Assembly: GCA_022843925.1 (NCBI GenBank)
Contig: JALHMS010000005.1
Span: 186,001-250,000, forward strand
Direction: 5' to 3'
Length of the DNA: 64,000 bases
DNA from: Burkholderiales bacterium
GTDB taxonomy: Bacteria; Pseudomonadota; Gammaproteobacteria; Burkholderiales; Ga0077523
Position 1 is the first letter of the stretch. Every line of letters begins with the position of its first letter. The translations under genes were made by a program, and so were the position numbers. Positions 34,457 through 62,222 of this stretch are shown one piece after another. The notes under the pieces are model-generated. The model was not told the DNA's origin and searched no databases. It saw nothing but the letters and a program-made list of their open reading frames with translations.

Positions 34457-35332
34457 TCAGTACGGACCGGGCCGCGCCGCGGACCCCAGCATCTCGCCGT
34501 AGACGTCCGTGCGGCGGTCCCGCAGCAGCTGGTTGAACTCGTTCAGGCTGCGGCGACGGCGGGCGTCGGCGAGGTTGAGGTCCGCGATCAGCATCTCCTC
34601 CCGCTCGGTGCTCGCCGGGCCCGCGATGGGCCAGCCGGCCGCATTCACGATGAGGCTGTTGCCGAGGAAGGGCTGGCCGCGTTCGACGCCCACGCGATCG
34701 GCAGCGGCGACGAACATCGAGTTGGTGTGGGCGCCGCCCATCGCCAGGATGTTCGCCATCATCGGGAGGTGTGCCGGCTGCTCCGCCATCGGCACCCAGT
34801 TCGTCGCGACGCAGAGCAGGTCGGCCCCCTGCAGGGCGGCGAGCCGGAAGGTCTCCGGGAACCAGATGTCGTAGCAGATGGCGACCGCGATGCGGCCGGC
34901 GCCCGCGTGGAAGACCGGCATGCCGAGGTCGCCGGGCTCGAAGTAGAGTTTCTCCGCGCCCCACAGATGGTTCTTCCGGTAGGTGCCGACGTACCCACGC
35001 GGCCCCACCATCACCGCGGCGTTGTAGAGCTTGTCCCCCACGCGCTCGGTGATGCCGGCGACGATGAAGAGGTCGTGCTGCTTCGCGGCCTGCATCCACG
35101 CGTGAGTGGTGGGGCCGTCGGGCACGGACTCGGCGAGCGAGAAGGCCTCTTCGCGGGTCTCGAACACATAGCCCGTGTTGCAGAGTTCCGGCAGCACGAC
35201 GAGGTTCGCGCCGTCCGCCGCGGCCTCGGCGATCATCGCGAGGCTCCGCGCGACGTTCGCTTCCTTGCGGCCGATGTGCGGTTCCATCTGCAGGCAGGCC
35301 ACGCGCAGCGGGCTTTCGGGGGGCTGTCTCAT
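34457..35332 (-). CDS. Nitrilase-superfamily carbon-nitrogen hydrolase
   Basis: A cytoplasmic hydrolase of 291 residues from the ATG at 35332. The Glu-Lys-Cys triad is Glu49 (LPELCNTGY), Lys120 (TYRKNHLWG) and Cys153 (AICYDIWFPE). The superfamily cleaves non-peptide C-N bonds in amides, carbamoyl compounds or nitriles. It is the last gene of the amide-responsive locus, 4 bases after the amidase. It is shorter than AmiE-type aliphatic amidases (about 346) and its substrate cannot be named from sequence. Confidence 0.9.
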   Translation of the reverse strand: MRQPPESPLRVACLQMEPHIGRKEANVARSLAMIAEAAADGANLVVLPELCNTGYVFETREEAFSLAESVPDGPTTHAWMQAAKQHDLFIVAGITERVGDKLYNAAVMVGPRGYVGTYRKNHLWGAEKLYFEPGDLGMPVFHAGAGRIAVAICYDIWFPETFRLAALQGADLLCVATNWVPMAEQPAHLPMMANILAMGGAHTNSMFVAAADRVGVERGQPFLGNSLIVNAAGWPIAGPASTEREEMLIADLNLADARRRRSLNEFNQLLRDRRTDVYGEMLGSAARPGPY

Positions 35333-35336
35333 CGAA

Positions 35337-36758
35337 TCACTCCGGAACGGGTGGAACGGCGGCGGGCAAGGCCACGGGCAGGCGATCCTTCCAATCGTGC
35401 CGGCGTTCGTAGGCATGCGCCACCCTCAGCACCATCGGCTCGTCGAAGGGGCGCGCGGCGATCTGCAGGCCGATGGGGAGACCGTCGCGATCGAACCCGC
35501 AAGGCACCGAGATCGCCGGCAGCCCCGTGAGGTTGTACGGATAGGTGAAACGCCACGATGCGGCGAGCACGCTCTCCGGCTGCCCCGCGACCTGTACGGT
35601 CCACTCGCCCCGCTTCCACGCGGTGATCGGCGTGGTCGGGCCGACGACGACGTCGACCTTCGCGAAGACCTTGCGGAACTCGTCCATCAGGGCCATCCGG
35701 TACTGCTCCGCCTTGAGATAGTCCGCGCCCGTCACGAGCCGTCCCATCTCCACGAGCGTGCGCACGTCGGGCGTGAAGTCGGCGACGCGACCGGCGCGCA
35801 GCGAGGCATCGTGATACGCGGTCGAACTCGAAAGCTCGATCGCGAAGATCGCGCCGAGGCCGAACTCCAGCAGCGGGATGCGGAACTCGACCACCTTCGC
35901 ACCGGCCTTCGCGAGGTCGTCGATGGCGGTCTCCGTGGCCGCCGCGACGTCGTCCTGCAGACCGTCGAAGAAGTGATTGCGGCAGACGCCGATCGTCAGC
36001 CCCTTCACGGGGCGACCGAGGCTCTTCGCGAAGTCGGGGACGGGCTGGTCCTGGCACGCCGGGTCCGCCGGGTCGTAGCCCGACAGCACCTGCATCATCA
36101 ACGCGGTGTCCGTCACCGTGCGGGTCAGCGGTCCGGCATGATCGAGCGACCAGCTGTGCGGCACCACGCCGTCGCGGCTCACGCGGCCGAACGTGCCCTT
36201 GAGGCCCACGACGCCGCACGCCGCCGCCGGCATCCGGATCGAACCACCGGTGTCGGACCCGAGTCCGGCGACGCACAGGCCTGCGGCCACCGCGGCGCCC
36301 GAGCCGCCGCTGGATCCGGAAGGCACGCGCGCGAGATCCCAGGGGTTGCGCACCGGCGGCGTCACGTTGCCCCAGGCGAACTCGTGCGTGCGCGTCTTGC
36401 CGATGGGCACGGCGCCTGCCGCACGCAGCCGCGCGACGGCGGCGGCATCGCGCATCGGGAACGCGAGCCCCGGGGCCTGGCTGCCGACGGTCGTCGGCAT
36501 GTCGGCGGTGAGGTAGTTGTCCTTCACGCCGACGGGAATGCCGTGCAGCGGACCGCGCCAGTGCCCGGCGGCGATCTCGCGCTCCGCGGCCCGCGCCGCG
36601 TCGAGCGCCGTCGTCGAGACGTGGATGAAGCTGAGCAGCCGGTCGTCCGTCGTCGCGATGCGATCGAGGCAGGCCTCCGTCAGCGCGACCGGCGAGATCT
36701 CCCCGGCGCGGATCGCCGGCGCGAGTTTCTCGATGGGCTGCGACCAGAGATCCTTCAC
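35337..36758 (-). CDS. Amidase-signature family hydrolase
   Basis: A 473-residue Ser-cisSer-Lys amidase. Lys79 is in VGVKDN, the cis-Ser at about 150 in the glycine-rich GSSGGSGAAVAAG segment, and the nucleophile Ser173 in SDTGGSIRMPA. The start is GTG at 36758, whose bases overlap the GatC-like gene stop as GTGA. Pairing with a small GatC/AtzG-like partner resembles GatA-GatC and AtzE-AtzG. The operon context suggests hydrolysis of an imported amide or carboxyurea-type compound; the substrate is unknown. Confidence 0.92.
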   Translation of the reverse strand: MKDLWSQPIEKLAPAIRAGEISPVALTEACLDRIATTDDRLLSFIHVSTTALDAARAAEREIAAGHWRGPLHGIPVGVKDNYLTADMPTTVGSQAPGLAFPMRDAAAVARLRAAGAVPIGKTRTHEFAWGNVTPPVRNPWDLARVPSGSSGGSGAAVAAGLCVAGLGSDTGGSIRMPAAACGVVGLKGTFGRVSRDGVVPHSWSLDHAGPLTRTVTDTALMMQVLSGYDPADPACQDQPVPDFAKSLGRPVKGLTIGVCRNHFFDGLQDDVAAATETAIDDLAKAGAKVVEFRIPLLEFGLGAIFAIELSSSTAYHDASLRAGRVADFTPDVRTLVEMGRLVTGADYLKAEQYRMALMDEFRKVFAKVDVVVGPTTPITAWKRGEWTVQVAGQPESVLAASWRFTYPYNLTGLPAISVPCGFDRDGLPIGLQIAARPFDEPMVLRVAHAYERRHDWKDRLPVALPAAVPPVPE

Positions 36759-36949
36759 GGCGCGTCCCCCTTCTGCCGGTACGGCGCCGTGGGCTCGAAG
36801 ACGATCGCCGGGTGCACGTCCGTCAGGTCGAGCGCGCGCAGCGCTTCGAGGTTCGCGAGGATGTCGCGGTAGGCGGAAACGACGGCGGCCTGGCGCTCGG
36901 GTGGCAGGTCGAGACCGAGCAGTTCGCGGAGGGGGTTGTCGGGTTCCAT
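36755..36949 (-). CDS. Small GatC/AtzG-like amidase partner
   Basis: A 64-residue protein starting MEPDNPLRELLGLDLPPERQ, with an N-terminal helical part and an extended C-terminal tail (VHPAIVFEPTAPYR) as in GatC and AtzG, which wrap around their amidase. GAGGAA lies 6 bases before the ATG. It overlaps the amidase start by 4 bases (GTGA), consistent with stoichiometric complex formation. Similarity is by pattern and context, not by alignment. Confidence 0.7.
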   Translation of the reverse strand: MEPDNPLRELLGLDLPPERQAAVVSAYRDILANLEALRALDLTDVHPAIVFEPTAPYRQKGDAP

Positions 36950-36957
36950 GGAGTTCC

Positions 36958-37686
36958 TCAGGGAGCGCTGCCGCCACCGCCGGGGCGGTCCGGGGGCGCG
37001 AGGCCCAGGGTGCGCACGACGGCCTCGGGTGCCCCGGCGCCGGGGTTCGCGCGGGTCGGCATGCCCTGCACGAAGGGGAGCGTCTGCAGCGTGACGATGC
37101 GGAGCACGCGCCGCATTTCGTGAACGGGTTGCGGATGATCGTCGACGCGCACGTCGATCAGCGGATACGCCTCGACGTGATGCACGGTCAGTGCAGCCGA
37201 TTGACGGCCGCGCCGGTCGCCGCCCGCGGCGTCGCCGGCTTCGAGGGCGCGCATCAGGCGTTCGGCGAGATCGGCGCCAGCGGCGTCCTCGAACGCGGCA
37301 GCCATGGCCTCGATCACCGCGGCACCGGTGAGCATGTTGCCCTGGACCGCGAATCCCCGCCCCTCGATGGCACCCACCCAGTCCGTGCATTCCGTGCCGG
37401 ACCATGCGGCGCTGCGGCCCTGCGCGTCGACGACTCCGATCTGGCGCAGCTCGCGGCCATCGTCGGCGGCCAGCACCGTGCGCAGCGCGTCGGGGCCGCT
37501 CGCGCCGCGCGCCATCAGATCGAGCGCGTCGATGGCGAGATACGGGTTCACCCACGACTGCGTCGAGACCGCGCCGACGCCGGCCCGCACGAACGGACAC
37601 ATCGACCCGACGGCAGGCACGGCGGTCGCGACCGCTGTGCCGAGCATGCCGGTGCGCGGGCAGCGGGCTACGATGGAGAAGGTCAT
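36958..37686 (-). CDS. DUF1028 family protein (putative Ntn-type hydrolase)
   Basis: A 242-residue protein matching the DUF1028 pattern: MTFSIVARCPRTGMLGTAVA at the N-terminus, RAGVGAVSTQSWVNP, RELRQIGVVDAQGRSAA, GFAVQGNMLTG and the C-terminal GGDRRGRQSAAL. The family has an Ntn-hydrolase-like fold, but its biochemical role is largely unassigned. It lies 16 bases after livF and 8 before the GatC-like gene, fixing it inside the amide transport/hydrolysis operon; a hydrolytic step on the same substrate is a reasonable inference. Confidence 0.88.
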   Translation of the reverse strand: MTFSIVARCPRTGMLGTAVATAVPAVGSMCPFVRAGVGAVSTQSWVNPYLAIDALDLMARGASGPDALRTVLAADDGRELRQIGVVDAQGRSAAWSGTECTDWVGAIEGRGFAVQGNMLTGAAVIEAMAAAFEDAAGADLAERLMRALEAGDAAGGDRRGRQSAALTVHHVEAYPLIDVRVDDHPQPVHEMRRVLRIVTLQTLPFVQGMPTRANPGAGAPEAVVRTLGLAPPDRPGGGGSAP

Positions 37687-37702
37687 GGTGCCGGCTCCGG
37701 GT

Positions 37703-38431
37703 TCAGACGCTCAACTGGTCGGTGATGCGCGCCGCGACGGCACCGTCACCCACCGGGCCCGTGTCGACGATCTCGCCCAGCTTCAGCACGGCGTACCGGT
37801 CGGCGACGGCGAGCGCGAACTGCACGTTCTGCTCGACGATCAGCATGGCCGCGCCGGTCTCGTCGCGCTCGGCGCGCAGCACGCGGACCATGCGTTCGAT
37901 CACCGATGGCTGCAGTCCCTCCGTGATCTCGTCGATCAGGATGAGCCGCGGACGCGTCATCAGCGCGCGCGCCACGAGCAGCATCTTCTGCTCGCCGCCC
38001 GAGAGCGTACCGGCACGCTGCTTCAGCCGCTGCGGGATGAACGGGAAGTGCACGCCGATCCGTTCGAGACCGGCTGCGAACTGCGTCCGGTCGCGCAGTG
38101 CGAGGCGCAGGTTGTCCTCCACGGTGAGGTCCTGGAAGAGCGCCTGTTCCTGAGGTGTGTATGCGAGGCTGCGGCGGGCGAGCAGATGCGGCGCGAGCCC
38201 ACCGACCGCTTCCCCGAAGAACGACACCGCGCCGCCCTGCAGCGGGAGGAATCCCATCACGGTCTTCAGCAGCGTGCTCTTGCCCATGCCGTTCTTGCCG
38301 AGCAGCGCGAAGATCTCACCCGGCTGGACGGTGAGATGCACGTCGCGCACGACGACCGCTTCCCCGTAGCCGCTGCGCATGCCTGCGACGGCCAGCGCGG
38401 CGCTGCCGGCGATGTCGACGCGCGCGTTCAC
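37703..38431 (-). CDS. Branched-chain/amide-type ABC transporter ATP-binding protein, LivF-like
   Basis: A 242-residue ABC ATPase with Walker A GKNGMGKST (45-53), the signature LSGGEQKMLL, Walker B LILIDE and a switch histidine region. It starts at a GTG (38431) overlapping the LivM-LivG gene stop as GTGA. With the fused LivG domain it makes the ATPase pair of a HAAT-family importer. UrtE-like proteins of urea transporters are close relatives. Confidence 0.93.
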   Translation of the reverse strand: MNARVDIAGSAALAVAGMRSGYGEAVVVRDVHLTVQPGEIFALLGKNGMGKSTLLKTVMGFLPLQGGAVSFFGEAVGGLAPHLLARRSLAYTPQEQALFQDLTVEDNLRLALRDRTQFAAGLERIGVHFPFIPQRLKQRAGTLSGGEQKMLLVARALMTRPRLILIDEITEGLQPSVIERMVRVLRAERDETGAAMLIVEQNVQFALAVADRYAVLKLGEIVDTGPVGDGAVAARITDQLSV

Positions 38432-40260
38432 GACGGCGCCCCGTGGGCTGCACCGGAGTAGATGGTGCGCACCAGTTCCGACTCGACGACCTCGGCCACG
38501 GTGCCGTCGAGCACGAGACGGCCCTGATGCAGGACGATCACGCGCGAGCTGATCTCGCGGACGAAGTCGAGGTCGTGCTCGACGAGCAGGATGCAGAGGC
38601 GGTGCTTCTGCGCGAGGTTGACGAGGATCCCGCCGATCATCGTCCGTTCGGGCTTCGTGAGGCCGGCCGTCGGTTCGTCGAGCAGCAGCACGCTGGGTTC
38701 CAGCGCCAGCACCATCGCGAGTTCGAGGGCCTGCTTCATGCCGTGGGAGAGATGGCGTGCCTCGGTGCCGATCTGCAGGTCGAGGCCCGTCGCGCGGATC
38801 ACCTGCAGCGACGCCTCGGGCAACGGCAGCGTGCCATCGCGGGACCAGAGCGACGGCCGCGCCATCCGCGTCCGCGCGATCCGCAGGGCCTCGGCCACCG
38901 TCAGCGTCTCGAACACGTTCGCCGTCTGGAACTTGCGCCCGACCCCGAAGCCGACGCACGTGTACGGCGGCTTCCGTCCGATGTCGTGGTCGTTGATCCG
39001 CACGGTGCCGCCCGAACGCTCGTTGCCGTCGGCGACGCAGCGCATGAGCGTCGTCTTGCCCGCGCCGTTCGGGCCGACGAGGCTCAAGAGTTCGCCGCGG
39101 TTCGCCGTGAAGTCGATGCCCTGGAGCACCGCGAGGCTGCCGAAGTGCTTGCGGACGCCTTCGACGGCAAGCGCCTGCTGCCCCGCGCCTTCCAGCCCTG
39201 CGTACGGCGCGGCCGCGGAATGTTCGAACGTGACCGGCGCATCCGGCGCATCGGCTTCGCGACGCCCGAAGAGTCTGCGGGCCGTCCGCGTGACGAGCGG
39301 TGTCAGCCCCTGCGGCAGCGCGACGATCACCACCACGAACGCGACGCCGATCACGAGCTTCCAGACGAACGGCAGGTTGCCGCTCAGGTACGACGTGCTG
39401 ACGTCGAGCACCAGCGTCCCGATGACCGGGCCGATCAGCGTGCCGCGACCGCCGAGCGCCACCCAGATGAGCAGCTCCGTCCCGAAGACGAAGCCGGCGT
39501 ACTCGGGGGCCACCACCATCTGCACACCGGCGAAGGCATAGCCGGCGATGGCCGCGATGGCCGCACAGACCACCATGAGGACGATCTTCACGCGCGAGAC
39601 GTTGATCCCCACGTACTCGCAGCGCTGCTCGTTCTCGCGGATCGCGACGAGGATGCGGCCGGCGTCGCTGCGGACGAAGAGCCACGCCGCGGACGTGAGG
39701 GCGACGAGGAAGCCTCCCGCGATCCAGAACCACGCCTCGATCGACACATCGAAACTCTCGAACCCCGAGAGCCCGCTGCTCGACCCGGTGAAGTTGCCGC
39801 CGGAGAAGAGGATCTGCGTCACCACGATAGGCAGCACGAGCGTGACGACCGAGCCGTAGAGCGGCGAGGCGCCGTGATAGAACGCGAGCCAGCCCACGAG
39901 CCCCGCCACGAGCATCGCGACCCCGACACCGGCGACCAGCGCGATGGCCGCGTAGCCCGTGCTGAATCCCACGTGCGTGAACATCAGGCCCGCGGCGTAG
40001 GCACCGATGCCGAAGAAGGCGGACTGCCCGAACGTGAGGATGCCGGTGTAGCCCCACAGCACGTCGACGGTGAGCGCCACGGCGGCGTAGAGGAACGCGC
40101 GGATGAGCCCGTTCACCATGTACATCGGCAGCACGTACGGACCGATCGCGATGACCACCAGCGCGATGGCCGCGAAGATGCCGAGTCGCTTCAGGTCACT
40201 GCGCTTGCGTGGGGCGCTCGCCACTGGAGACGGGAGGACGGAAGCGACGGGATCAGCCAC
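38428..40260 (-). CDS. Fused LivM permease-LivG ATPase of an amide-type ABC transporter
   Basis: A 610-residue fusion. Residues 1-325 form a LivM-type permease with about nine membrane helices (including GYTGILTFGQSAFFGIGAYA). After a linker, residues 365-610 are an ABC ATPase with Walker A GPNGAGKTT (about 395-403), signature LSHGMKQALELAM and Walker B VLLLDEP. LSHG rather than LSGG is typical of UrtD-like subunits of urea/short-amide importers. It overlaps livH by 8 bases and livF by 4. Confidence 0.92.
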   Translation of the reverse strand: MADPVASVLPSPVASAPRKRSDLKRLGIFAAIALVVIAIGPYVLPMYMVNGLIRAFLYAAVALTVDVLWGYTGILTFGQSAFFGIGAYAAGLMFTHVGFSTGYAAIALVAGVGVAMLVAGLVGWLAFYHGASPLYGSVVTLVLPIVVTQILFSGGNFTGSSSGLSGFESFDVSIEAWFWIAGGFLVALTSAAWLFVRSDAGRILVAIRENEQRCEYVGINVSRVKIVLMVVCAAIAAIAGYAFAGVQMVVAPEYAGFVFGTELLIWVALGGRGTLIGPVIGTLVLDVSTSYLSGNLPFVWKLVIGVAFVVVIVALPQGLTPLVTRTARRLFGRREADAPDAPVTFEHSAAAPYAGLEGAGQQALAVEGVRKHFGSLAVLQGIDFTANRGELLSLVGPNGAGKTTLMRCVADGNERSGGTVRINDHDIGRKPPYTCVGFGVGRKFQTANVFETLTVAEALRIARTRMARPSLWSRDGTLPLPEASLQVIRATGLDLQIGTEARHLSHGMKQALELAMVLALEPSVLLLDEPTAGLTKPERTMIGGILVNLAQKHRLCILLVEHDLDFVREISSRVIVLHQGRLVLDGTVAEVVESELVRTIYSGAAHGAPS

Positions 40261-41089
40261 GGGAGAACCCCTGCGGACGCAGTCGCAGCACGAACGCGGC
40301 GAGCACGACGATGGTGAGGCCGCCGAGGATCGGGTTCCCCCACTGGCTGACGAGCACCTGCGCGCCGCCCAGGACGACGCATGCGATCGCGAGGCTGACG
40401 AGCGACACGCCCGAGACCATCACGAGCATGAAGGCGTTCACGAGCCACGGCACACCCATGTTCGGATCGACGCTCGACAGCGGCGTGATGAGCGAGCCCG
40501 CGAGACTCGCGAGACCGGCGCCCAGCGAGAAGGTCGCGAACCGCACGAGGCCGGAGTTGATGCCGAGCGCGCGGGCGAGGTTCTCGTTCATGATCACCGC
40601 GCGGGTCACGAGCCCGAGGCGCGTGCCTTCGAGGACCGCCGCGAGGGTGAGGCCGAGGGCCACGGCCACCGCGACGAGCAGCAGCCGGTATTCGGAATAG
40701 GACGCGCCGCCGGGCAGATCGAGCGCGCCCGTCACTGGGCTCTTCACGAACTGCACCTCGCGGCCGAAGGCGAGCGTGATGACCTGTCCGATGATGATGC
40801 CGAGGCCCCACGTCGCGAGGATCGCGTCGAGCGGGCGCGAGTAGAGCGGACGCACGACCAGCCGCTCGATCGCCATGCCGCAGACCGCACCGATCACGAA
40901 GGCGAAGGCCGGCGCCCACCACGGATGCAGACCGAGGTGCGTCACCAGCAGGGCCGAATAGCCGCCCACGGTGAGGAAGCCACCGTGCGCGAAGTTGATG
41001 ATCTTCATCACGCCGAACACGAGCAGCAACCCGGCACAGACCGAGTAGAGGATCGCGGCGGTGGTGAGGATGTCGAGTAGGGTGGACAA
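40253..41089 (-). CDS. LivH-like ABC transporter permease
   Basis: A 278-residue inner-membrane permease with about eight helices. The LivH-type motif INFAHGGFLTVGGYSALL is near the N-terminus. It partners the LivM half of the next gene to form the importer channel. It lies 155 bases downstream of the binding-protein gene and overlaps the permease-ATPase fusion by 8 bases. Confidence 0.93.
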   Translation of the reverse strand: MSTLLDILTTAAILYSVCAGLLLVFGVMKIINFAHGGFLTVGGYSALLVTHLGLHPWWAPAFAFVIGAVCGMAIERLVVRPLYSRPLDAILATWGLGIIIGQVITLAFGREVQFVKSPVTGALDLPGGASYSEYRLLLVAVAVALGLTLAAVLEGTRLGLVTRAVIMNENLARALGINSGLVRFATFSLGAGLASLAGSLITPLSSVDPNMGVPWLVNAFMLVMVSGVSLVSLAIACVVLGGAQVLVSQWGNPILGGLTIVVLAAFVLRLRPQGFSRG

Positions 41090-41244
41090 GGCGTGTACGC
41101 GGAAAGTGGATCGAGGATCAGGAGTGGCGGACGGGAGCCGGCGACCGCGGATGGGGAACCGGCCGCCGGTCGCCAGGGGACGCGTCCCGCGATGGTCTGC
41201 GATGGCACCCCACCGGCTTCTCCCGGCCCCGAACGCCTATCGAC

Positions 41245-42429
41245 TCACTTCAGCTTCGGACACTGTTCGCCCGGATCGACGTCCTTGAACGTCTCGAGCA
41301 CTTCGACGCCACCTTCCTTCGTGACCTTGCCCAGATACATCGTGAGCGGCGCGTGGCGCTGCTTGTTCATCTGGATGACGCCGCGCGGGCCCTCGAACGC
41401 GACTTCCGCCAGGGCGGCGATCACCTTGTCGGCATCGGTGGAGCCGGCCTTCTCGACGGCCATCTTGTACGCGTACACGCCCTCGTACTGCGGCACCGAG
41501 AGGTCGTTGGGCGTCTTCAGGTTCGCGCCGAACTTCTTCTGCATCGCGGCCATGAACGCCTGGTTCTTCGGCGAGGCGATGTTGGTGAAGTACGAGCCCG
41601 AGATGTAGATGCCCTCGGCGTCGGCGCCCATGCTCTTCGCGGTGCCTTCGTCCACGGCTAGGTTGCCGTAGGGGATCTTCACACCGGCCGCACGCAGCTG
41701 CTTGGTGAGCGTGACGTTCGGGGCGCCGCCGGCCGTCGACGTGATGAGCGCGTCGGGGTTCGCGGCCTTCAGCTTGCTGATGACCGAGGTCCAGTCGCTG
41801 CCGTCCATCGGCAGGTATTCCTCGCCGACCACCTTGCCGCCGATCTTCGTGATGTAGCCGCGCGTGAACTCCAGCATGCCGCGGCCGAAGGCGTAGTCGC
41901 TGCCCACGAGGAAGTAGGTCTTCGCCTTGTAGTTCTTGGCGAAGTAATCGACGATCGGCGCGACCTGCTGGTCGGGTACCCATGCGTTCACGTACAGGTA
42001 CTTGTTGCAGGAGCGCCCTTCGTAGAACGAGGTGTAGATGAAGGGTGTCTTGCCGCGCGTGACGATGGGCAGGCCGGCGTTGCGCGCCGCGCTGGTTTCC
42101 ATCGAGATCAGCACGTTCACCTTCTTCTGGAAGATGAGCGAGTCGAAGGCCTTCTGCGCGCCGGCGGCGCCGCTGCCGTCGTCAGCCACTTCCAGCACGA
42201 CCTTCTTCCCGAGGATGCCGCCCTTGGCGTTGATCTCCTCGGCCGCGAGTTCCGCGGACTGGACGACCGACGGTGCGACGACGCTGTTCGCGCCGCTGAG
42301 GCCCACGGGGATGCCGATGCGGATGACGTCCTCGGCGTGCGCTGCCGGGAGGGTGAGGGCGGTGGCGAAGGTGGCCAGGGTGGCCCACTGAGCCGCGCGG
42401 ACGAGGGGTCCGGTCTTCTTCGATTGCAT
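41245..42429 (-). CDS. Periplasmic amide/urea-type substrate-binding protein
   Basis: A 394-residue periplasmic-binding protein with a Sec signal ending AAHAE (about residue 32). The type I fold is marked by IGIPVGLSGANSVVAPSVVQ and EINAKGGILGKKV. It belongs with LivK/UrtA/AmiC-like proteins and should deliver ligand to the LivH-LivM channel. GTGGAG lies 8 bases before the ATG. It is the first gene after the ANTAR leader/terminator, so its expression and that of the downstream operon is probably controlled by AmiR. Ligand identity is not deducible. Confidence 0.93.
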   Translation of the reverse strand: MQSKKTGPLVRAAQWATLATFATALTLPAAHAEDVIRIGIPVGLSGANSVVAPSVVQSAELAAEEINAKGGILGKKVVLEVADDGSGAAGAQKAFDSLIFQKKVNVLISMETSAARNAGLPIVTRGKTPFIYTSFYEGRSCNKYLYVNAWVPDQQVAPIVDYFAKNYKAKTYFLVGSDYAFGRGMLEFTRGYITKIGGKVVGEEYLPMDGSDWTSVISKLKAANPDALITSTAGGAPNVTLTKQLRAAGVKIPYGNLAVDEGTAKSMGADAEGIYISGSYFTNIASPKNQAFMAAMQKKFGANLKTPNDLSVPQYEGVYAYKMAVEKAGSTDADKVIAALAEVAFEGPRGVIQMNKQRHAPLTMYLGKVTKEGGVEVLETFKDVDPGEQCPKLK

Positions 42430-42560
42430 GCTGTATCTCCACGTGTTGACTGCGTTGGCGGGTCATCGCGGCCGGCGGTGGTGCAGTGCCGGCACGCTTC
42501 GTCGCATCTCGTCGGGTGGACAGCGCATCGAGCGATCAAGCGGGGCGGAATCTCGGGCCG

Positions 42561-42608
42561 AAAACGAAAAAGCCCCCGTCCCGCCGTGATGGCGCAAGAG
42601 CGGAGGCT
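42561..42608 (-). terminator. Intrinsic terminator in the leader of the amide importer operon
   Basis: On the minus strand AGCCTCCG (42608-42601) pairs with CGGGGGCT (42578-42571), with an inner CGCC/GGCG hairpin, followed by TTTTCGTTTT (42570-42561). It lies between amiR and the binding-protein gene. Its 5' arm overlaps the 3' arm of the adjacent hexaloop hairpin, so the two structures exclude each other. Confidence 0.82.
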
Positions 42609-42646
42609 TCGTAGCCTCGATGTCCGGACGCGGCAGCCCTGCCGCG
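42603..42646 (-). promoter_or_regulatory. Putative ANTAR (AmiR) target: tandem hexaloop hairpins
   Basis: On the minus strand, hairpin 1 is CGCGGC-AGGGCT-GCCGCG (42646-42629), with a 6-base loop having A at position 1 and G at position 4, the ANTAR consensus. After a 10-base linker, hairpin 2 is GAGGC-TACGAA-GCCTC (42618-42603), with G at loop position 4 but T at position 1. The 3' arm of hairpin 2 is part of the terminator stem. This is the classic dual-hairpin antiterminator layout. A further hairpin (arms at 42679-42684 and 42659-42664, 9-base loop) precedes it. Confidence 0.7.
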
Positions 42647-42692
42647 GTTCCAACTCGATCGCCGCGGATGTTCTGCGGCGACATGCTTCATG

Positions 42693-43352
42693 TCAAGAAG
42701 ATCTGCGCACCGGCAGCCGCAGCACCGTGCGGCTTGCATCGCGCACCGGAACTGCCACCGGTTCGGGCCGCGGATCGAACACGCGATGCGCGGTGATGAT
42801 GGAGCGCGCCACGACACCCATCGAGAGTCGCTGCGACGTCGCCTGCTGGCGGATCAGCTGGTACGCGGTGTCTTCCGACGAGCCCTTCACTTCCATCAGG
42901 ATGCGCGTCGCGCGCTCGATGTCGCGGCGACTCTTCAGTGTCTCTTCCAGCTTCGCCACCTTGCTGAGCAGGCGGCCCTGGTAGCCATGCAGCGACCGCG
43001 CCATCACGAGGCTCGACAGGACGCCGGACGGCCGGATCGGCTTCGCGATGACCGCGTGCGCGCCGGAATCGAGGAGGCTCTTCAGCGCGGTCGGATTCTC
43101 GAAGTCGACGATCGCGATGAGCGGCGGCCCGCCGTCCGCGATGGCTGCGGGCACCACGTTGGGTCCCGCCGGGCAGATGGAGAAGAACACGACGTCGACA
43201 TCCGTCGGCAGTGCCGCGGGCACCGGCCACGCGAGGCGTGTCTGGCAACCGATGCGCTTCAGATGACGCACGAGTTCCTCGATCTCGGTGTCGAGCGGAT
43301 GGATCACCAGCACGCGCGTGCCGCGCAGTTCGCGGATCGGATCGACGGTCAT
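42693..43352 (-). CDS. amiR: ANTAR-domain transcription antiterminator, AmiR-like
   Basis: A 219-residue protein from the ATG at 43352 (GCAGGAGC upstream). The N-terminal two thirds is a pseudo-receiver (RVLVIHPLDTEIEELVRHLK), followed by a coiled coil (LLSKVAKLEETLKSRRDIE) and a C-terminal ANTAR domain with RATRILMEVKGSSEDTAYQLIRQ split over about residues 150-205. In Pseudomonas, AmiR binds nascent RNA and prevents termination unless held by AmiC. amiC precedes it here and a matching leader follows it. Confidence 0.93.
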   Translation of the reverse strand: MTVDPIRELRGTRVLVIHPLDTEIEELVRHLKRIGCQTRLAWPVPAALPTDVDVVFFSICPAGPNVVPAAIADGGPPLIAIVDFENPTALKSLLDSGAHAVIAKPIRPSGVLSSLVMARSLHGYQGRLLSKVAKLEETLKSRRDIERATRILMEVKGSSEDTAYQLIRQQATSQRLSMGVVARSIITAHRVFDPRPEPVAVPVRDASRTVLRLPVRRSS

Positions 43353-43539
43353 GACATGCTCCTGCTCGTGCACTGGATCATGGCGCCGTGGCGCCGGCCT
43401 GCACCGAAAACGCTCCCCGACCCTGCAGATCATCGGGGGCGCTGCTGCGTCCTCCCCTTGGGCGCCGACTCACGGGGACCGCAGGGGCTCCCCATGTTCC
43501 ACGTTTCGTGCCACGTGGAGGGTCGATCCGATCGCGGCC

Positions 43540-44697
43540 TCAGCCGCGCGACGCGGCCGCCTCCACGAGATCGTCCACACCGCCGTAGGACACGAGCCAC
43601 GGATCCGGTTGCACGGGCTGCGCCGCCTCCCAGACGATGTCGAAGGCGTCCTCGCCGTTCCACACCCCCACCCGCGGCGTGAGCCACGTGTGATTGTTCT
43701 CCGGGTCGATGGTGACCCGTCCGTGCGGGGCCTCCAGTTCGAGGCCCCGGGCGCTGCGGATGATCCGCTGCGTATCCATGCCGCCGGCCAGCGCCAGCGC
43801 CGCGGCGAACAGGCGCATCGCCGTGTAGCCCGAGGCGGCGTACTGGCTGATGGGCGTGGTGGCGCCGAAGCGGCGACGGAACGCTTCGGTGAAGGCCCGG
43901 TTCGCGGGGGTGTCGATGCTGCCGAAGTAGGGCGCTGCGGTGATGTGCCCTGCGCACTCCGGTCGCCCGATCGCGATCAGTTCGGCTTCGGTGACGTTGT
44001 GGCTCGCGACGGGGATGTCCGCGGGGTCGATGCCGGCATCGGCGTAGCGCATCAGGAAGCGCCCGATGCCGTCGCCCACCACCGTGCTGAAGACGGCATC
44101 GGGCCGCAGCGCCTTCACGCGATCGACGAGCCGGTCGAAGGCGTCGTCGCGCGCAGCCATCGGCAGGTAGATCTCGTCCAGCACCGTGCCGCCCTGCCGC
44201 TCGACGAGATCGCGCATCACGCGGTTGGCCTCGCGCGGATACACGTAGTCGGAGCCGAGCAGCACGAAACGCCGGGCGCCGCGCCGGAAGAGGTGCCGGG
44301 CGAGGGGCACGCTGTTCTGATTGGTGGCCGCGCCCGTGTAGATCACGTTCGGGGAGAACTCGAAGCCTTCGTAGAGATCCGGGTACCACAGGAGGCCGTT
44401 GCGGCGCTCGATGGCGGGCAGCACCGCCTTCCGGCTGAGCGACGTGCAGCAGCCGACCATCACGCTCACGGCATCCTCGGTGAGCAGGCGGTCGGCGTAG
44501 CGCCGGTATAGGGCGGGGTCCGAGCGGGTGTCGTACTCGATGGCGGCGAGCGGCCTGCCGAGGACGCCGCCCGCGGCGTTGATCTCCTCGATGGCGAGGG
44601 TCGCGCCGCGGAGGTGCTGCGACGACGGGATCCCCATCGGGCCGGAACGGGAGAAGAGCAGACCGACCGCCCAGGCGTCCTCGCGCTCCACGCTCAT
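43540..44697 (-). CDS. amiC: AmiC-like amide-sensing negative regulator
   Basis: A 385-residue periplasmic-binding-fold protein without a signal peptide, hence cytoplasmic. It matches Pseudomonas AmiC in length and in segments such as MVGCCTSLSRKAVLPAIER, YPDLYEGFEFSPNVIYTG, GSDYVYPREANRVMRDL, FSTVVGDG and APYFGSIDTPANRAF. AmiC sequesters AmiR until a small amide is bound. It heads the minus-strand locus, with amiR 187 bases downstream. That gap has a CCACGT/ACGTGG hairpin (43499-43518) but no gene. The divergent oxidoreductase gene is 93 bases away. Confidence 0.93.
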   Translation of the reverse strand: MSVEREDAWAVGLLFSRSGPMGIPSSQHLRGATLAIEEINAAGGVLGRPLAAIEYDTRSDPALYRRYADRLLTEDAVSVMVGCCTSLSRKAVLPAIERRNGLLWYPDLYEGFEFSPNVIYTGAATNQNSVPLARHLFRRGARRFVLLGSDYVYPREANRVMRDLVERQGGTVLDEIYLPMAARDDAFDRLVDRVKALRPDAVFSTVVGDGIGRFLMRYADAGIDPADIPVASHNVTEAELIAIGRPECAGHITAAPYFGSIDTPANRAFTEAFRRRFGATTPISQYAASGYTAMRLFAAALALAGGMDTQRIIRSARGLELEAPHGRVTIDPENNHTWLTPRVGVWNGEDAFDIVWEAAQPVQPDPWLVSYGGVDDLVEAAASRG

Positions 44698-44790
44698 CGG
44701 GCTGTTCCCTCATCGCTCATGACGGTCGAACATAGCACAGGGTCCGCGCCGCATAATCGGCGCTTCCGACGTCGCAGGGAGTCCCGATCG

Positions 44791-45810
44791 ATGGTTGCCG
44801 TCAACCGCCAGTGGTGCATCGCCCGCCGCCCCGAGGGGAGCGCATCCGAAGACGATTTCGCGTGGCAGGAGACGCCGGTCCCGGGTGTCGCCGAGGGGCA
44901 GGCGCTCGTGCGCAATCTGTTCCTCTCGATCGACCCCACGAACCGCCCCTGGATGTGGGAGAAGGACACCTACCTGCCGGCGCAGAACCTCGGGCAGCCC
45001 ATGCGCGGCGTCTGCATCGGGCGCGTGGAGCAGTCCGCGAATCCGAAGTTTCCAGTGGGGTGCCACGTCTCCGGCCTGTTCGGTTGGCAGGACTACACCG
45101 TGATCGACAGCCAGATGCGCGTGAACCGGCTGCCCGACGATCCGTCGATCCCGCTCACGATGCACTTCGGCCTTTTCGGGCACATCGGTATCCCCGCGTA
45201 CTTCGGCGTGCTCGAGATCGGCCGCGCGAAGGCGGGCGAGACGCTGGTCGTGTCCGGGGCGGCCGGGGCCGTCGGTTCGCTGGCCGGCCAGATCGGGAAG
45301 ATCACCGGCTGCCGCGTGATCGGCATCGCGGGCACGGCAGATAAATGTCGCTGGATCACGGACACGCTCGGGTTCGACGCGGCGATCGATTACCGCACCG
45401 AATCGGTGGCGGACCGCCTGGATGCGCTGTGCCCCGACGGCATCGACGTCTACTTCGACAACGTCGGCGGGCCGATGCTGGAGACGGTGCTCGACCGCAT
45501 GAAAGTGCACGGTCGCATCGCGCTGTGCGGCGCCATCTCGCAGTACAACCACGCGGACGTGAGCGATTTCGAGCCTGGCCCCCGCAACCTCTTCCTCATG
45601 GTGACGAAGCGGCTGCGGATGGAGGGCTTCCTGTCGTCCGACTATGTGCCCCGCGCCCGCGAGGCGATCGACGCGCTGGCCGGCTGGTACCGCGAGGGGC
45701 GCATCCAGTATCGCCTGCACGTGATCGACGGGCTGGAGCAGGCGCCGACCGCCCTGGGCATGCTGTTCGACGGCACCAACCAGGGGAAGCTGATCGTCCG
45801 GATCGCGTGA
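44791..45810 (+). CDS. NADP-dependent MDR-family oxidoreductase (enoyl/2-alkenal reductase type)
   Basis: A 339-residue zinc-independent medium-chain reductase of the leukotriene-B4/curcumin reductase group. The N-terminus has RQWCIARRPEGSASEDDF and FLSIDPTNRPWM; the nucleotide loop AAGAVGS is at 157-163 and DVYFDNVGG follows. It should reduce an activated C=C bond with NADPH. The ATG at 44791 has AGGGAG upstream. It is divergent from amiC, but no functional link is evident. Confidence 0.9.
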   Translation: MVAVNRQWCIARRPEGSASEDDFAWQETPVPGVAEGQALVRNLFLSIDPTNRPWMWEKDTYLPAQNLGQPMRGVCIGRVEQSANPKFPVGCHVSGLFGWQDYTVIDSQMRVNRLPDDPSIPLTMHFGLFGHIGIPAYFGVLEIGRAKAGETLVVSGAAGAVGSLAGQIGKITGCRVIGIAGTADKCRWITDTLGFDAAIDYRTESVADRLDALCPDGIDVYFDNVGGPMLETVLDRMKVHGRIALCGAISQYNHADVSDFEPGPRNLFLMVTKRLRMEGFLSSDYVPRAREAIDALAGWYREGRIQYRLHVIDGLEQAPTALGMLFDGTNQGKLIVRIA

Positions 45811-45822
45811 TTTCCGACGGAT

Positions 45823-46779
45823 TCAGCGGAAGCCGGCGGCTGCCATGTCGGCGCGGTTCGGCGGGTCGGCGCCGGCACGGCTGCAGGTGATCGCCGCTGC
45901 GGCGATGGCGTAGCGCAGGGCGTCGTCCATATCCGTGGAGGCGATGCGCTGCAGGGCACCGCGTTCGAGCAGGCCGCGCGCATGCAGCCGGGACAGGAGC
46001 GCGGCATGGAAACCGTCGCCCGCGCCGACCGTGTCGACCACGCGTACGGATTGCCCGGGCACCGTCATGGAAGCACCGCCGAAGAACGCGGTGGCCCCTG
46101 CGGGGCCGAGCGTGACGATCACCAGCGATACGCCGGCTTCGATCCAGCGCTGCGCCAGCGTCGCGGCTTCGCAGTCCGGTCCGAACGCCGCGAAGACATC
46201 CTCGTCGCTCGCCTTCACGATCGTCGCGTGCGCCAACAGCGCGCCGAAGCGCTGACGCCACGCCGCGAGGTCCCCCACCAGCGCAGGCCGCACGTTCGCG
46301 TCGATGCTGATGACGCGCTGCGCGCCTTCCCGCGCGGCGAGGGCGGCGAGCGCATCGGCCATGGGGGGCACTGCGATCGGATACGAACCGAGGGCGATGG
46401 CCTGGATGTTCGCGGGCAACGTGGCAGGTAGCGCCTCGGGCGTGAGCGCAGTGTCCGCCGTGCGATCCACCTGGAATTCGTAGCGGGGATGCCCGGCGCT
46501 GTCGGTGGAGATCCGGGCGACCGGGGTGGGGCGATCCGTCCGCACCGCGAGCCGCGTGTCGACGCCGGCATCGGTCAGGCGTCGGATCAGGAGGGCGCCG
46601 TGGTCATCCGTCGAGATCCCGCCCAGGAAGGCTGCCGGGCAGCCGAGACGACCGAGGCCGATCGCCACGTTGAAAGGCGAGCCGCCGGGGTTGGGGCGAT
46701 CGGGCGCGGCGTCGAACACGTCGACCAGCGCCTCGCCGCACACCAGCACCGCGGGCGCTGCACCGTCGTCAGGCGGCAT
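45823..46779 (-). CDS. PfkB-family sugar kinase, fructokinase-like
   Basis: A ribokinase-fold kinase of 318 residues. The N-terminal VCGEALVDVF and NPGGSPFNVAIGLGRLG segments bind sugar, and DTVGAGDGFHAALL contains the catalytic base Asp255. Fructose is the most likely substrate of this subgroup, inferred only. The ATG at 46779 has GGAGGAC upstream and overlaps the end of the ParA-like gene by 11 bases, so the two are translated together. Confidence 0.88.
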   Translation of the reverse strand: MPPDDGAAPAVLVCGEALVDVFDAAPDRPNPGGSPFNVAIGLGRLGCPAAFLGGISTDDHGALLIRRLTDAGVDTRLAVRTDRPTPVARISTDSAGHPRYEFQVDRTADTALTPEALPATLPANIQAIALGSYPIAVPPMADALAALAAREGAQRVISIDANVRPALVGDLAAWRQRFGALLAHATIVKASDEDVFAAFGPDCEAATLAQRWIEAGVSLVIVTLGPAGATAFFGGASMTVPGQSVRVVDTVGAGDGFHAALLSRLHARGLLERGALQRIASTDMDDALRYAIAAAAITCSRAGADPPNRADMAAAGFR

Positions 46780-47401
46780 CGTCCTCCGCCACGCCGATGG
46801 CGAGGCCGAGGCGGTCGAGCACCTGGCCGGCGATGCGCCGGCAGGCATTGTTGAGCGGCGTGGGCAGGGATTCCGGGATCTCGTCGAGCAGCAGGAGCTT
46901 GGAGCTGCTCACGGCGGCGACCGGTTCGAGGAGGCGGTGCCGCTGGTTGCCGAGCATGGTGTCCACGAGCCGGTCGGCGGCGTCGCGCTGCCAGGGGTTG
47001 GTCGGCCATTGCGAAGGCACGGCCAGCGCGTTCGGAAAGCGCTCGAGGTCCTGCAGGACGGTGCGGATGTCCTCGGGGGAATCGCGGAAGGGCAGCAGCA
47101 CGAGGGTTGCCACGGACTGCAGGCGACGATCCTTCTCGGTGCGTCCGCCGCCGCCGTCGACGATGCCGATCCAGCCTTCCAGACCGTGGAGCTTCTGCAC
47201 GACGCGATCGAGCAGATCGGGGGTGCGTGCGTCCGCGGGGAGATAGCGGCGATTCGTGCGGGAAAGCAGCGTACGCGTGGTGTCGGTGAGCACCACGACA
47301 GCCCGATGACCGCAGAGCCCGAGGCCTTCCCCGAGCATGTGCGACAGGGTCGTCTTGCCCGTGCCGCCCTTGTTGCCGATGACGCTGATGATCTCTGCCA
47401 T
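46769..47401 (-). CDS. Orphan ParA/MinD-like P-loop ATPase
   Basis: A 210-residue protein from the ATG at 47401 (CGGAG upstream). It begins MAEIISVIGNKGGTGKTT, with deviant Walker A lysines Lys11 and Lys16. The usual DxDPQ switch is replaced by LTDTT and the Walker B region reads IVDGGGG, so it departs from chromosome-partitioning ParA. There is no ParB or cargo gene nearby; instead it is coupled to a sugar kinase. Role unknown. Confidence 0.82.
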   Translation of the reverse strand: MAEIISVIGNKGGTGKTTLSHMLGEGLGLCGHRAVVVLTDTTRTLLSRTNRRYLPADARTPDLLDRVVQKLHGLEGWIGIVDGGGGRTEKDRRLQSVATLVLLPFRDSPEDIRTVLQDLERFPNALAVPSQWPTNPWQRDAADRLVDTMLGNQRHRLLEPVAAVSSSKLLLLDEIPESLPTPLNNACRRIAGQVLDRLGLAIGVAEDDAA

Positions 47402-47515
47402 GGATCTCCGTCTCCGATGCCGACGGTATCCGAGCGCGTCGAAGCGCACAACCCTGCAGCCGCGGCTCGCGGGGAAGGCGAACGGGCGCCGATGGGCCGT
47501 CGTCGATCGCACGGG

Positions 47516-47554
47516 GAAAGAAAAAGGGCGGGGCACTTTCGCGCTCCGCCCTTT
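47516..47554 (-). terminator. Intrinsic terminator after dnaJ
   Basis: On the minus strand AAAGGGCGG (47554-47546) pairs with CCGCCCTTT (47531-47523) around a 14-base loop and is followed by a TTCTTT run. It lies 19 bases after the dnaJ stop. The rest of 47402-47515 shows nothing recognisable. Confidence 0.82.
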
Positions 47555-47573
47555 CGCGTTCGATCCGCGGCGA

Positions 47574-48698
47574 TCAGGTCCCGAAGAAATCCTTCACCTT
47601 CTCCATCCACGACTTCGCCTTCGGGTTGTGGTGGGCCCCGTCGCGCTCGTTGATGGATTCCAGTTCCTCCAGCAGTTCCCGCTGGCGCGCCGTCAGATTC
47701 ACGGGCGTCTCGATCATCACGTGGCACAGCAGATCGCCGTGCGTGGACGACCGGACGCCCTTGATGCCCTTGCCGCGCAGCCGGAACACCTTGCCGGTCT
47801 GGGTCTCGGCGGGGATACGGATCTTCGCCGCGCCATCCAGCGTGGGGATCTCGATCTCGCCGCCGAGCGCTGCCGTGGTGAAGCTGATCGGCATCTCGCA
47901 GTGGAGGTCGTTCTGGTCGCGCGTGAAGACGGCGTGCTCGCGGATGTGGATGACCACGTAGAGGTCGCCGTTCGGACCGCCGTTGACGCCGGCCTCGCCC
48001 TCGCCGGACAGGCGGATGCGATCCCCTTCGTCCACGCCCGCCGGAATCTTCACCGACAGCGTCTTCTGCTTCTTGGTGCGCCCCGCGCCGCCGCACGTGC
48101 CGCAGGGGTCGGTGATGACCTTGCCGCTGCCGTGACACTTCGGGCACGTCTGCTGGATGCTGAAGAAGCCCTGCTGCATCCGCACCTGGCCGTGGCCGGC
48201 GCAGGTCGGGCAGGTCTTGGGTTGCGTTCCGGACTTCGCGCCGGTCCCGTGGCAGGTTTCGCACTCCTCCATGGTCGGGATGCGGATGCGGGTCTCGGTA
48301 CCGCGCGCGGCCTCTTCCAGGGACACTTCGAGGTTGTAGCGGAGGTCCGCGCCGCGGTAGACGCTGTTGCGCCCGCCGCCGCCCCGGCCGCCTCCGAAGA
48401 TATCGCCGAAGATCTCGCCGAACATCCCCTCGAAGCCACCCATGCCGGCTCCGCCCGCGGCGGCGGCCGAGGGATCGACGCCGGCGTGGCCGTAGGAGTC
48501 GTAGGCCGCCCGCTTCTGCGGGTCGGAGAGCATCTCGTAGGCTTCCTTCGCCTCCTTGAACTTCTCCTCGGCGTCCTTGCTGTCCGGGTTGCGGTCCGGG
48601 TGGAACTTCATCGCGAGCTTCCGGTACGACTTCTTGATCTCATCGTCGGAGGCGTCGCGGTTCACACCCAGGATTTCGTAAAAATCACGCTTGGCCAT
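47574..48698 (-). CDS. dnaJ: Chaperone protein DnaJ (Hsp40)
   Basis: Class I J-protein of 374 residues that delivers clients to DnaK and stimulates its ATPase. In order: J domain with the HPD motif (KFHPDRNPD), a Gly/Phe-rich region with [20 protein letters not shown], four zinc repeats ([32 protein letters not shown]) and C-terminal client-binding domains. It is 171 bases downstream of dnaK with hairpins between them, and is followed by a strong terminator. Confidence 0.98.
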
Positions 48699-61784: not shown

Positions 61785-62222
61785 ATGGCCGTAGCCAAGA
61801 AACCCGCTGCCAAGAAGCCCGCCGTGAAGAAGGCGGCTCCAGCCAAGAAGGCTGCCCCGGCAGCCAAGAAGGCCGCTGCTCCGGCCAAGAAGGCAGCTCC
61901 GGCAGCCAAGAAAGCCGCGGCACCTGCCGCCAAGAAGGCAGCGCCGGCGGCCAAGAAGCCCGCGGCGAAGCGCACCCCGAACGCCGCATTCATGAAGCCC
62001 ATGACCCCGAGCGCCGTCCTCGCGGCCGTGATCGGCGACAAGGGAATGCCCCGCACGGAAGTGACCAAGAAGATCTGGGAATACATCAAGAAGAACAATC
62101 TTCAGGATGCCAAGAACAAGCGGATGATCAACGCCGACGACAAGCTGAAGGCCGTGTTCGGCGGCAAGAAGCAGGTGTCGATGTTCGAGATGACGAAGCT
62201 GGTGAGCGCGCATCTGAGCTGA
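61785..62222 (+). CDS. Histone H1-like Lys/Ala-rich protein with C-terminal SWIB domain
   Basis: A 145-residue basic protein. Residues 1-62 are tandem AAPAKK/AAPAAKK repeats like eukaryotic H1 tails and bacterial Hc1/AlgP-type proteins, suited to DNA compaction. Residues 65-145 form a SWIB/MDM2 domain (PSAVLAAVIGDKGMPRTEV, KKIWEYIKKNNLQDAKNKR, DDKLKAVFGGKKQVSMFEM). The gene stands alone with its own promoter and terminator. SWIB domains are mainly eukaryotic and chlamydial, but occur in some proteobacteria with this tail. Nucleoid or regulatory function is inferred. Confidence 0.9.
   Translation: MAVAKKPAAKKPAVKKAAPAKKAAPAAKKAAAPAKKAAPAAKKAAAPAAKKAAPAAKKPAAKRTPNAAFMKPMTPSAVLAAVIGDKGMPRTEVTKKIWEYIKKNNLQDAKNKRMINADDKLKAVFGGKKQVSMFEMTKLVSAHLS

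Follow-up and report, generated by a model that had tools for sequence, protein, structure and literature searches.

What controls the importer and hydrolase genes that follow a two-gene amide sensor? The question is raised by the minus strand of a 64,000-nucleotide stretch of Burkholderiales DNA (the window), where amiC and amiR are followed, after a gap of 263 nt, by genes for a substrate-binding protein (SBP), a permease, a fused permease-ATPase, an ATPase, a DUF1028 protein, an amidase and a nitrilase-family hydrolase. A sequence-only reading had placed an AmiR-type ANTAR antitermination leader in this gap, in front of an amide importer. In this study, it was concluded from sequence comparison that the leader is very probably an AmiR-dependent transcription attenuator of the importer-hydrolase operon. 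One RNA switch would tie the amide sensor to both uptake and hydrolysis.

Regulators and target genes

The amiC product resembles P. aeruginosa AmiC (1qnl, E=4.8e-89). AmiC is probably cytoplasmic because its Pfam domain begins at residue 10 and leaves no room for a signal peptide. The gene adjoins that of a protein with AmiR_N and ANTAR domains and the two form an AmiC-AmiR pair, the signal peptide being judged from the Pfam domain start alone. The amiR product matches P. aeruginosa AmiR (1qo0_D, E=1.7e-22) and EutV (6wsh, E=1.2e-7), and its true start is probably at 43352 (MTVDPIREL...), as judged from alignment with L005. At the place of EutV Met172, the window AmiR has Thr199 (by alignment, with the numbering shifted by 2 as deduced from Tyr164, Arg168 and Met172), while P. 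aeruginosa AmiR has Met; AmiRs are called Thr-type or Met-type below.

The importer SBP scores 224 bits on the UrtA profile TIGR03407, below the curated cut-off of 493. Therefore, the importer probably has a ligand other than urea, either an amide or another ureido compound. Judged from gene order and strand, the operon would extend from 42429 to about 34457 (Table 1). The amidase probably starts downstream of its ORF start. A small ORF just ahead of the amidase (36755-36949, minus strand) has an AtzG-like match below threshold (E=0.083), hinting at an AtzE/AtzG-like hydrolase.

Table 1. Features of the locus in window coordinates; energies are computed.
Feature	Position	Strand	Basis
P1 hairpin, 6-bp stem CGCGGC-AGGGCT-GCCGCG, loop AGGGCU (A1, G4)	42629..42646	-	sequence and fold; -11.9 kcal/mol
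P2 hairpin, 5-bp stem GAGGC-TACGAA-GCCTC, loop UACGAA (U1, G4, A6), putative antiterminator	42603..42618	-	sequence and fold; -8.2 kcal/mol
Intrinsic terminator stem, sharing the P2 3' arm	42570..42609	-	-23.1 kcal/mol folded alone
Terminator T-run (TTTTTCGTTTT)	42561..42571	-	sequence
-35-like box TTGACA, overlapping the amiR stop codon	42691..42696	-	position conserved in relatives; promoter inferred
Weak -10-like box GAACAT	42668-42673	-	inferred
amiC, sensor and negative regulator	43540..44697	-	Pfam Peripla_BP_5, E=6.6e-124
amiR, AmiR_N and ANTAR antiterminator	42693..43433	-	Pfam
Importer SBP, first gene past the attenuator	41245..42429	-	Pfam Peripla_BP_6
Importer permease, UrtB-like	40253..41089	-	Pfam and curated family profiles
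Fused permease-ATPase, UrtC+UrtD-like	38428..40260	-	Pfam and curated family profiles
Importer ATPase, UrtE-like	37703..38461	-	Pfam and curated family profiles
DUF1028 protein, putatively co-transcribed	36958..37686	-	Pfam
Amidase, putatively co-transcribed	35337..36977	-	Pfam Amidase, E=1.9e-121, from residue 99
Nitrilase-family C-N hydrolase, putatively co-transcribed	34457..35416	-	Pfam CN_hydrolase, E=3.6e-57

Leader structure

Two hairpins, P1 and P2, lie behind amiR on the minus strand, separated by a linker of 10 nt, and the 3' arm of P2 sits within the 5' arm of the terminator. Coordinates and folds bear out the sequence-only reading on each of these points. When compared with the dual-hexaloop RNA that ANTAR proteins target (Ramesh 2012; stems of at least 3 bp each), the leader has stems of 6 and 5 bp, and loop 1 carries A1 and G4. 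The linker length fits the range known from eut leaders of E. faecalis (5-12 nt; PMC3369931), and the 3' arm of P2 is shared with an intrinsic terminator as in the attenuating members. The definition in its published outline has A1 and G4 in both loops; loop 2 has G4 and no A1. Since the strict definition fails at this base, the leader is described as working like an ANTAR leader: by these features it lies outside the strict definition and belongs to a recognisable AmiR subgroup.

Both loops are 6 nt long between conserved stems, and their positions 1 and 6 are Watson-Crick complementary (A1-U6 in P1, U1-A6 in P2); the computed folds close both hairpins to tetraloops. The RNA from P1 to P2 folds into two hairpins, and the best fold with the terminator included retains P1 and drops P2. 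A further GC-rich hairpin is found in the gap upstream of P1. When the 264 nt behind amiR were shuffled 2000 times with dinucleotide content preserved, no shuffle reached the observed score for dual hairpin plus terminator, and 1 gave any strict match. The fold energy of the 153-nt region was moderately unusual (z=-1.84; 9 of 200 shuffles were equally good). A simple terminator scan (loops of 3-8 nt, single unbroken stem) did not list the terminator at 42570-42609.

Leaders of the same type in other genomes

A covariance search had been proposed as a check by the sequence-only reading. Model R3, built from eight leaders of genomes and plasmids outside the class of the window, found the window leader with 47.1 bits (E=1.4e-9 genome-wide), the next match having E=3.5. 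Model R1, in which the window row is included, gave E=6.2e-15 for this leader and 1.2 for the best other match in the genome. As no other R1 match fell below E=1, the search gave no second leader of the window type in this genome, and the region ahead of amiC in the window had no R1 match. A candidate second leader at 61797-61931 on the minus strand (R2 E=0.007; R1 and R3 E=0.06-0.37) was rejected as the antisense of a low-complexity PAAKK-repeat gene (61785-62222, plus strand). The antisense of this gene, which presumably encodes a SWIB-like tail, yields false matches with GC-rich hairpin models.

Of 299 genomes from the phylum, 8 gave a strong R1 match (E<=1.7e-12), and all 8 are among the 9 genomes with AmiR_N. 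This count is partly circular because seven of the eight genomes supplied rows to R1, and the absence elsewhere is its mainly independent part; Infernal's stricter filters were used, and the genome draws for AmiR_N and R1 look the same. Sensing by non-ANTAR means, such as a riboswitch or leader-peptide attenuation, might be suggested by the extra GC-rich hairpin upstream of P1 and by the alternative folds that are possible. However, no Rfam family reached its gathering score anywhere in the window and the near-matches in the gap lay far below, while the leaders adjoin amiR and no strong R1 match occurred in genomes without AmiR_N, so that such sensing is hardly probable at all. Conservation in relatives with covariation of the terminator, the R3 match and the co-occurrence with AmiR_N all support the AmiR-type ANTAR antitermination reading. 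The best Rfam near-match in the gap (P10, E=0.006) lies on the other strand, does not reach the gathering score and was put down to chance.

Among the remaining genomes of the 299, a weak R1 match in G543 (E=2.3e-4) reads as a plain terminator. Matches of 31-32 bits in L088 and L090 were also read as GC-rich terminators, and L092 was treated likewise. AmiR_N was present in 5 of the 220 genomes of G797's class, with a strong R1 match in one and a weak match in one more. The other four AmiR_N genomes of this class are all Met-type: G1055, G1172 and G1086 carry A1-type leader-like motifs, as read by eye, and G1173 has no leader-like motif behind amiR. Over the class of the window, an AmiR search (E<=1e-40) was positive in the source genome only, among 369. 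A scan of genome contigs with the AmiR alignment, peptide patterns being too narrow, gave one locus, L033 (MAG Ga0077532).

A dual hairpin with overlapping terminator was found in 22 of 55 scanned regions downstream of amiR, with one gene counted twice (L041/L053) and the loops picked being doubtful for L071 and L076. The leader-positive AmiRs belong to other families of the same order (G034, G488, G526, G530), to Comamonas and Cupriavidus plasmids, to Rhizobium, Agrobacterium, Ancylobacter, Aminobacter and Roseibium plasmids, and to several further genomes of the phylum. Where annotated, the gene after the leader encodes an importer SBP, or a nitrilase-family enzyme followed by an SBP. By this comparison, leaders recur behind amiC-amiR and ahead of importer or nitrilase genes on chromosomes and plasmids of Beta- and Alphaproteobacteria. 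The order of regulators first and transporter next, which had been noted as a contrast with Pseudomonas, recurs in relatives and is no peculiarity of the source genome.

No downstream leader was found behind any of the 20 paralogous Met-type AmiRs (L002, L006-L016, L037-L044). Two of the 21 Thr-type AmiRs, both from Paraburkholderia (L049, L073), had no leader behind amiR and no R1 match at E<=1 in their loci. The Paracoccus leaders (L047, L048) have diverged loops, with loop 2 lacking G4, and the scanner missed both; since the downstream scan demanded G4 in loop 2, counts of G4 in loop 2 lean on the scanner.

Covariation

An alignment of the gap in relatives had likewise been proposed, and it bore out conservation and the terminator but not covariation in P2. 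The alignment, A4, has 15 rows; Ancylobacter and Aminobacter were excluded from it, from A5 and A6 and from the models (gaps were misplaced in their loops), and L046, L047, L048, L059, L071, L072, L075 and L076 are also outside it (L046 and L059 are near-copies of kept rows). When P1 and the terminator are taken as the structure, 93.7% of cells are paired and 6 of 17 pairs have changed on both sides (5 of 12 in the terminator helix). The covariation score of 0.305 exceeded those of column shuffles (0.204) and slid partners (0.077-0.128), and one of five measures (further pair types) fell below the shuffles. The inner five pairs of P1 are paired in 98.7% of cells over the 15 rows.

When P1 and P2 are taken instead, 93.3% of cells are paired, and the score of 0.052 against 0.114 and 0.148 for the slid controls +2 and +3 indicates no covariation in P2. 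P2 is nevertheless supported because none of the 15 rows departs from its GGC/GCC arms or its loop ends U1/A6, and its 5' arm lies outside the terminator stem, the invariant GGC being complementary to the terminator 5' arm. In the alignment, covariation thus backs the terminator, and P2 rests on the invariance of its arms and loop ends.

Probable promoter and the possibility of a plain terminator

A promoter dedicated to the leader probably lies at the 3' end of amiR, because TTGAC is nearly fixed relative to P1 while the distance of the amiR stop varies. Of 17 Thr-type leader rows, 13 carry TTGAC at a distance of 50-53 nt ahead of the 5-bp stem of P1. These 13 amount to about 7 groups of near relatives, and their amiR stop lies 49-158 nt upstream of the stem. 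The rows without TTGAC at 50-53 nt are those of G530, Comamonas and Cupriavidus (three rows) and G889 (TTGCA at -52). In five Met-type rows, TTGAC is elsewhere or missing. The -10 boxes are weak, and a simple sigma-70 scan of 36000-48000 gave no site.

It could be argued that the element is an ordinary amiC-amiR terminator in which P1 and P2 are incidental, the importer being served by an unregulated promoter further downstream. The terminator does lie directly behind amiR, 131 nt are left before the importer gene, and the promoters are uncertain. However, P1 and the P2 5' arm are kept across classes although a terminator has no need of them, the model from another class finds the leader, such leaders elsewhere also stand ahead of urease and amiE, and the TTGAC box is upstream of P1 rather than past the terminator. 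A plain terminator is very unlikely on these grounds. The urease-operon leaders are AmiR-type and have the loops AGGGCU/UACGUA. They were found on plasmids of Comamonas and Cupriavidus and in G530 (67.1, 64 and 64 bits; L045 996-1069, L046 999-1072, L089 1501-1574), where the urease operon lies upstream of amiC-amiR.

Proposed mechanism and the paralogous system

In the attenuator reading, RNA polymerase would start at the inferred promoter at the amiR 3' end, or read through from amiC-amiR, and P1 and P2 would be transcribed. By default, the 3' arm of P2 would pair into the terminator, as in the computed structure, and transcription would presumably end at the T-run. By homology with P. aeruginosa, AmiC would bind an amide-like ligand and release AmiR. 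The ANTAR domains of AmiR would then bind both loops and keep P2 closed, the terminator would be blocked, and the operon would be transcribed. The terminator may also end basal amiCR transcripts. Dependence of the leader on AmiR and its response to amides are thus predictions. Two features speak against this reading: loop 2 lacks the A1 that is important to EutV, and the window AmiR has Thr in place of the Met172 reported as required there.

The source genome possesses a second, Met-type amiC-amiR on contig C7 (C7:124307; AmiR identity 40%) and a third, weak AmiR match (E=3.4e-4, one internal stop), so that the attenuator might be read by another ANTAR protein, for example this paralog, instead of the adjacent AmiR. 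However, the paralog has a divergent leader of its own before urtA (L097, minus strand, about 12662) with different loops, AAAGGC/AAAAGA, and the window-type leader tracks Thr-type AmiR. Reading by another ANTAR protein is highly improbable, and the adjacent AmiR remains the preferred partner. The SBP of the paralog locus is a true UrtA (511 bits, above the cut-off).

Leaders of this kind were found in 11 of 20 paralog regions, 9 of them divergent and 2 (G036, G707) upstream of an amidase gene preceding amiC-amiR. NCBIfam identifies this as an aliphatic amidase in G036 only. The order in G036 and G707 is that described for Pseudomonas and served as a positive control for the scan. In the paralog scans, loop 1 was forced to begin with A (first scan) or A/U (second) and position 1 of loop 2 was free, so that A1 in loop 1 is partly by construction. 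The demand for G4 in the first scan missed the leaders of G000 and G006, and the second scan found both. Both systems, Thr-type and Met-type, are present in G000, G006, G034 and G526.

Loop 2 and AmiR type

The sequence-only reading had described loop 2 as having G4 only. G4 is present and A1 absent, but the first base is not a degenerate A1: with U1 kept in every row of the alignment, it is by comparison a conserved feature. All 11 Thr-type leader types have U1 in loop 2. Their positions 1 and 6 are complementary in 11 of 11 cases for loop 2 and in 10 of 10 for loop 1, and loop 1, where it has 6 nt, carries A1 in 9 of 10 and G4 in 7 of 10. Among Met-type leader types, 11 of 13 have A1 in loop 2, and positions 1 and 6 are complementary in 4 of 13 (loop 2) and 2 of 12 (loop 1). 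This comparison used hand-compiled leader types, with the Roseibium, G1055/G1172, G1086 and Paracoccus loops read by eye, and leaves out tandem second motifs, before-amiC motifs, the A. tumefaciens L072 motif and the 5-nt Paracoccus loop 1.

The association between Thr/Met and loop type (Fisher 3e-5) takes no account of shared descent, and Thr represents at best a single origin. One change suffices for the 21 Thr-type AmiRs in 88% of bootstrap trees; the branch concerned (88/90) does not reach the level that the tool takes as firm, and the tool warns of long branches. Ancylobacter and Aminobacter, with a Met-type AmiR and yet U1 in loop 2, are counter-examples to a strict link.

In EutV, the flipped G4 is the only base-specific contact reported in the consulted part of PMC8934654, in which Met172 is reported as essential for RNA binding and proposed to exclude smaller loops. 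It is possible, though on balance doubtful, that two ANTAR dialects exist in one cell: the Thr-clade AmiR, without the methionine plug, would read loops with complementary positions 1 and 6, possibly as tetraloops, while Met-type AmiRs would mostly read unpaired A1 loops, and this code would keep amide and urea attenuators from cross-talk. If true, the loop code would provide a ready set of orthogonal antitermination pairs. The natural variation is in any case suited to testing both the rule of A1 and G4 and the interpretation of the EutV-RNA structure as a 'Met plug', and searches that require A1 in both loops would miss the Thr-type leader group.

Comparison with known systems

The control of P. 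aeruginosa amiE also employs a homologous AmiC sensor and AmiR antiterminator, and its leader, by published description (PMC3369931, PMC3369936), likewise has two hairpins of which the second overlaps an intrinsic terminator. In contrast, the target in the window is a transporter-hydrolase operon, the regulators are upstream of the leader, and loop 2 begins with U. The targets of EutV (eut) and NasR (nasF) share the two short hairpins and the overlap of P2 with the terminator; their loops have 6 nt, as many as stand between the conserved stems in the window, where the linker is 10 nt. They have A1 and G4 in both loops as outlined in print, whereas loop 2 in the window has U1, G4 and A6, the loops can close to tetraloops, and EutV has Met172 where the window AmiR has Thr.

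In plasmid acetamidase operons (amiC, amiR, amiE, ABC transporter), AmiC/AmiR are also linked to an importer thought to take in amide; gene content differs from the window, and the available part of that account (PMC13209695) describes no leader RNA. A transporter target is not new in kind, since the ANTAR matches summarized in PMC3369931 already include urea transporters; the literature consulted also includes PMC8164766 and PMC8297930. Among open-literature titles and abstracts, we found no AmiR leaders with U1 in loop 2 and no window-type leader before an amide importer. Relative to the published AmiR/ANTAR attenuators, the new element is, by this comparison, the U1 variant of loop 2.

Additional leader-like elements

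Diverged leader-like elements were seen ahead of amiC in Ancylobacter (30.2 bits; L051 4756-4825), Rhizobium etli 8C-3 (27.3 bits; L075 2536-2613) and an A. tumefaciens plasmid (17.2 bits, very weak; L072 2579-2660). These scores and those of the Paracoccus elements (33.6 and 31.5 bits) are no better than those of the rejected R1 matches; both groups rest on position beside amiC-amiR and on loops read by eye, and are leads. If real, the before-amiC elements would bring the regulators into the regulon that they control, which hints at autoregulation in some species.

A third hexaloop hairpin (AGGTTT, AGTGTT, AAGATT; A1/T6 complementary) stands 0-1 nt ahead of P1 in 8 of 17 Thr-type rows (L050, L056, L057, L058, L059, L060, L063, L064, in the 40 nt upstream of P1), none of them in the window's order, and it is absent from the window leader; about 3-5% of shuffles per row give such a hairpin by chance. 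Two leader-terminator units in tandem separate amiR from the importer in Rhizobium etli 8C-3 (L075 4562-4635 and 4665-4745) and Roseibium (L071 4571-4644 and 4672-4756), and amiC consists of two ORFs in the Roseibium record. Behind amiC-amiR on the Agrobacterium tumefaciens plasmid (L072 4573-4731), a weak leader-like terminator (18 bits) is followed by genes for a GTP-binding protein and CbtA/CbtB instead of amide genes.
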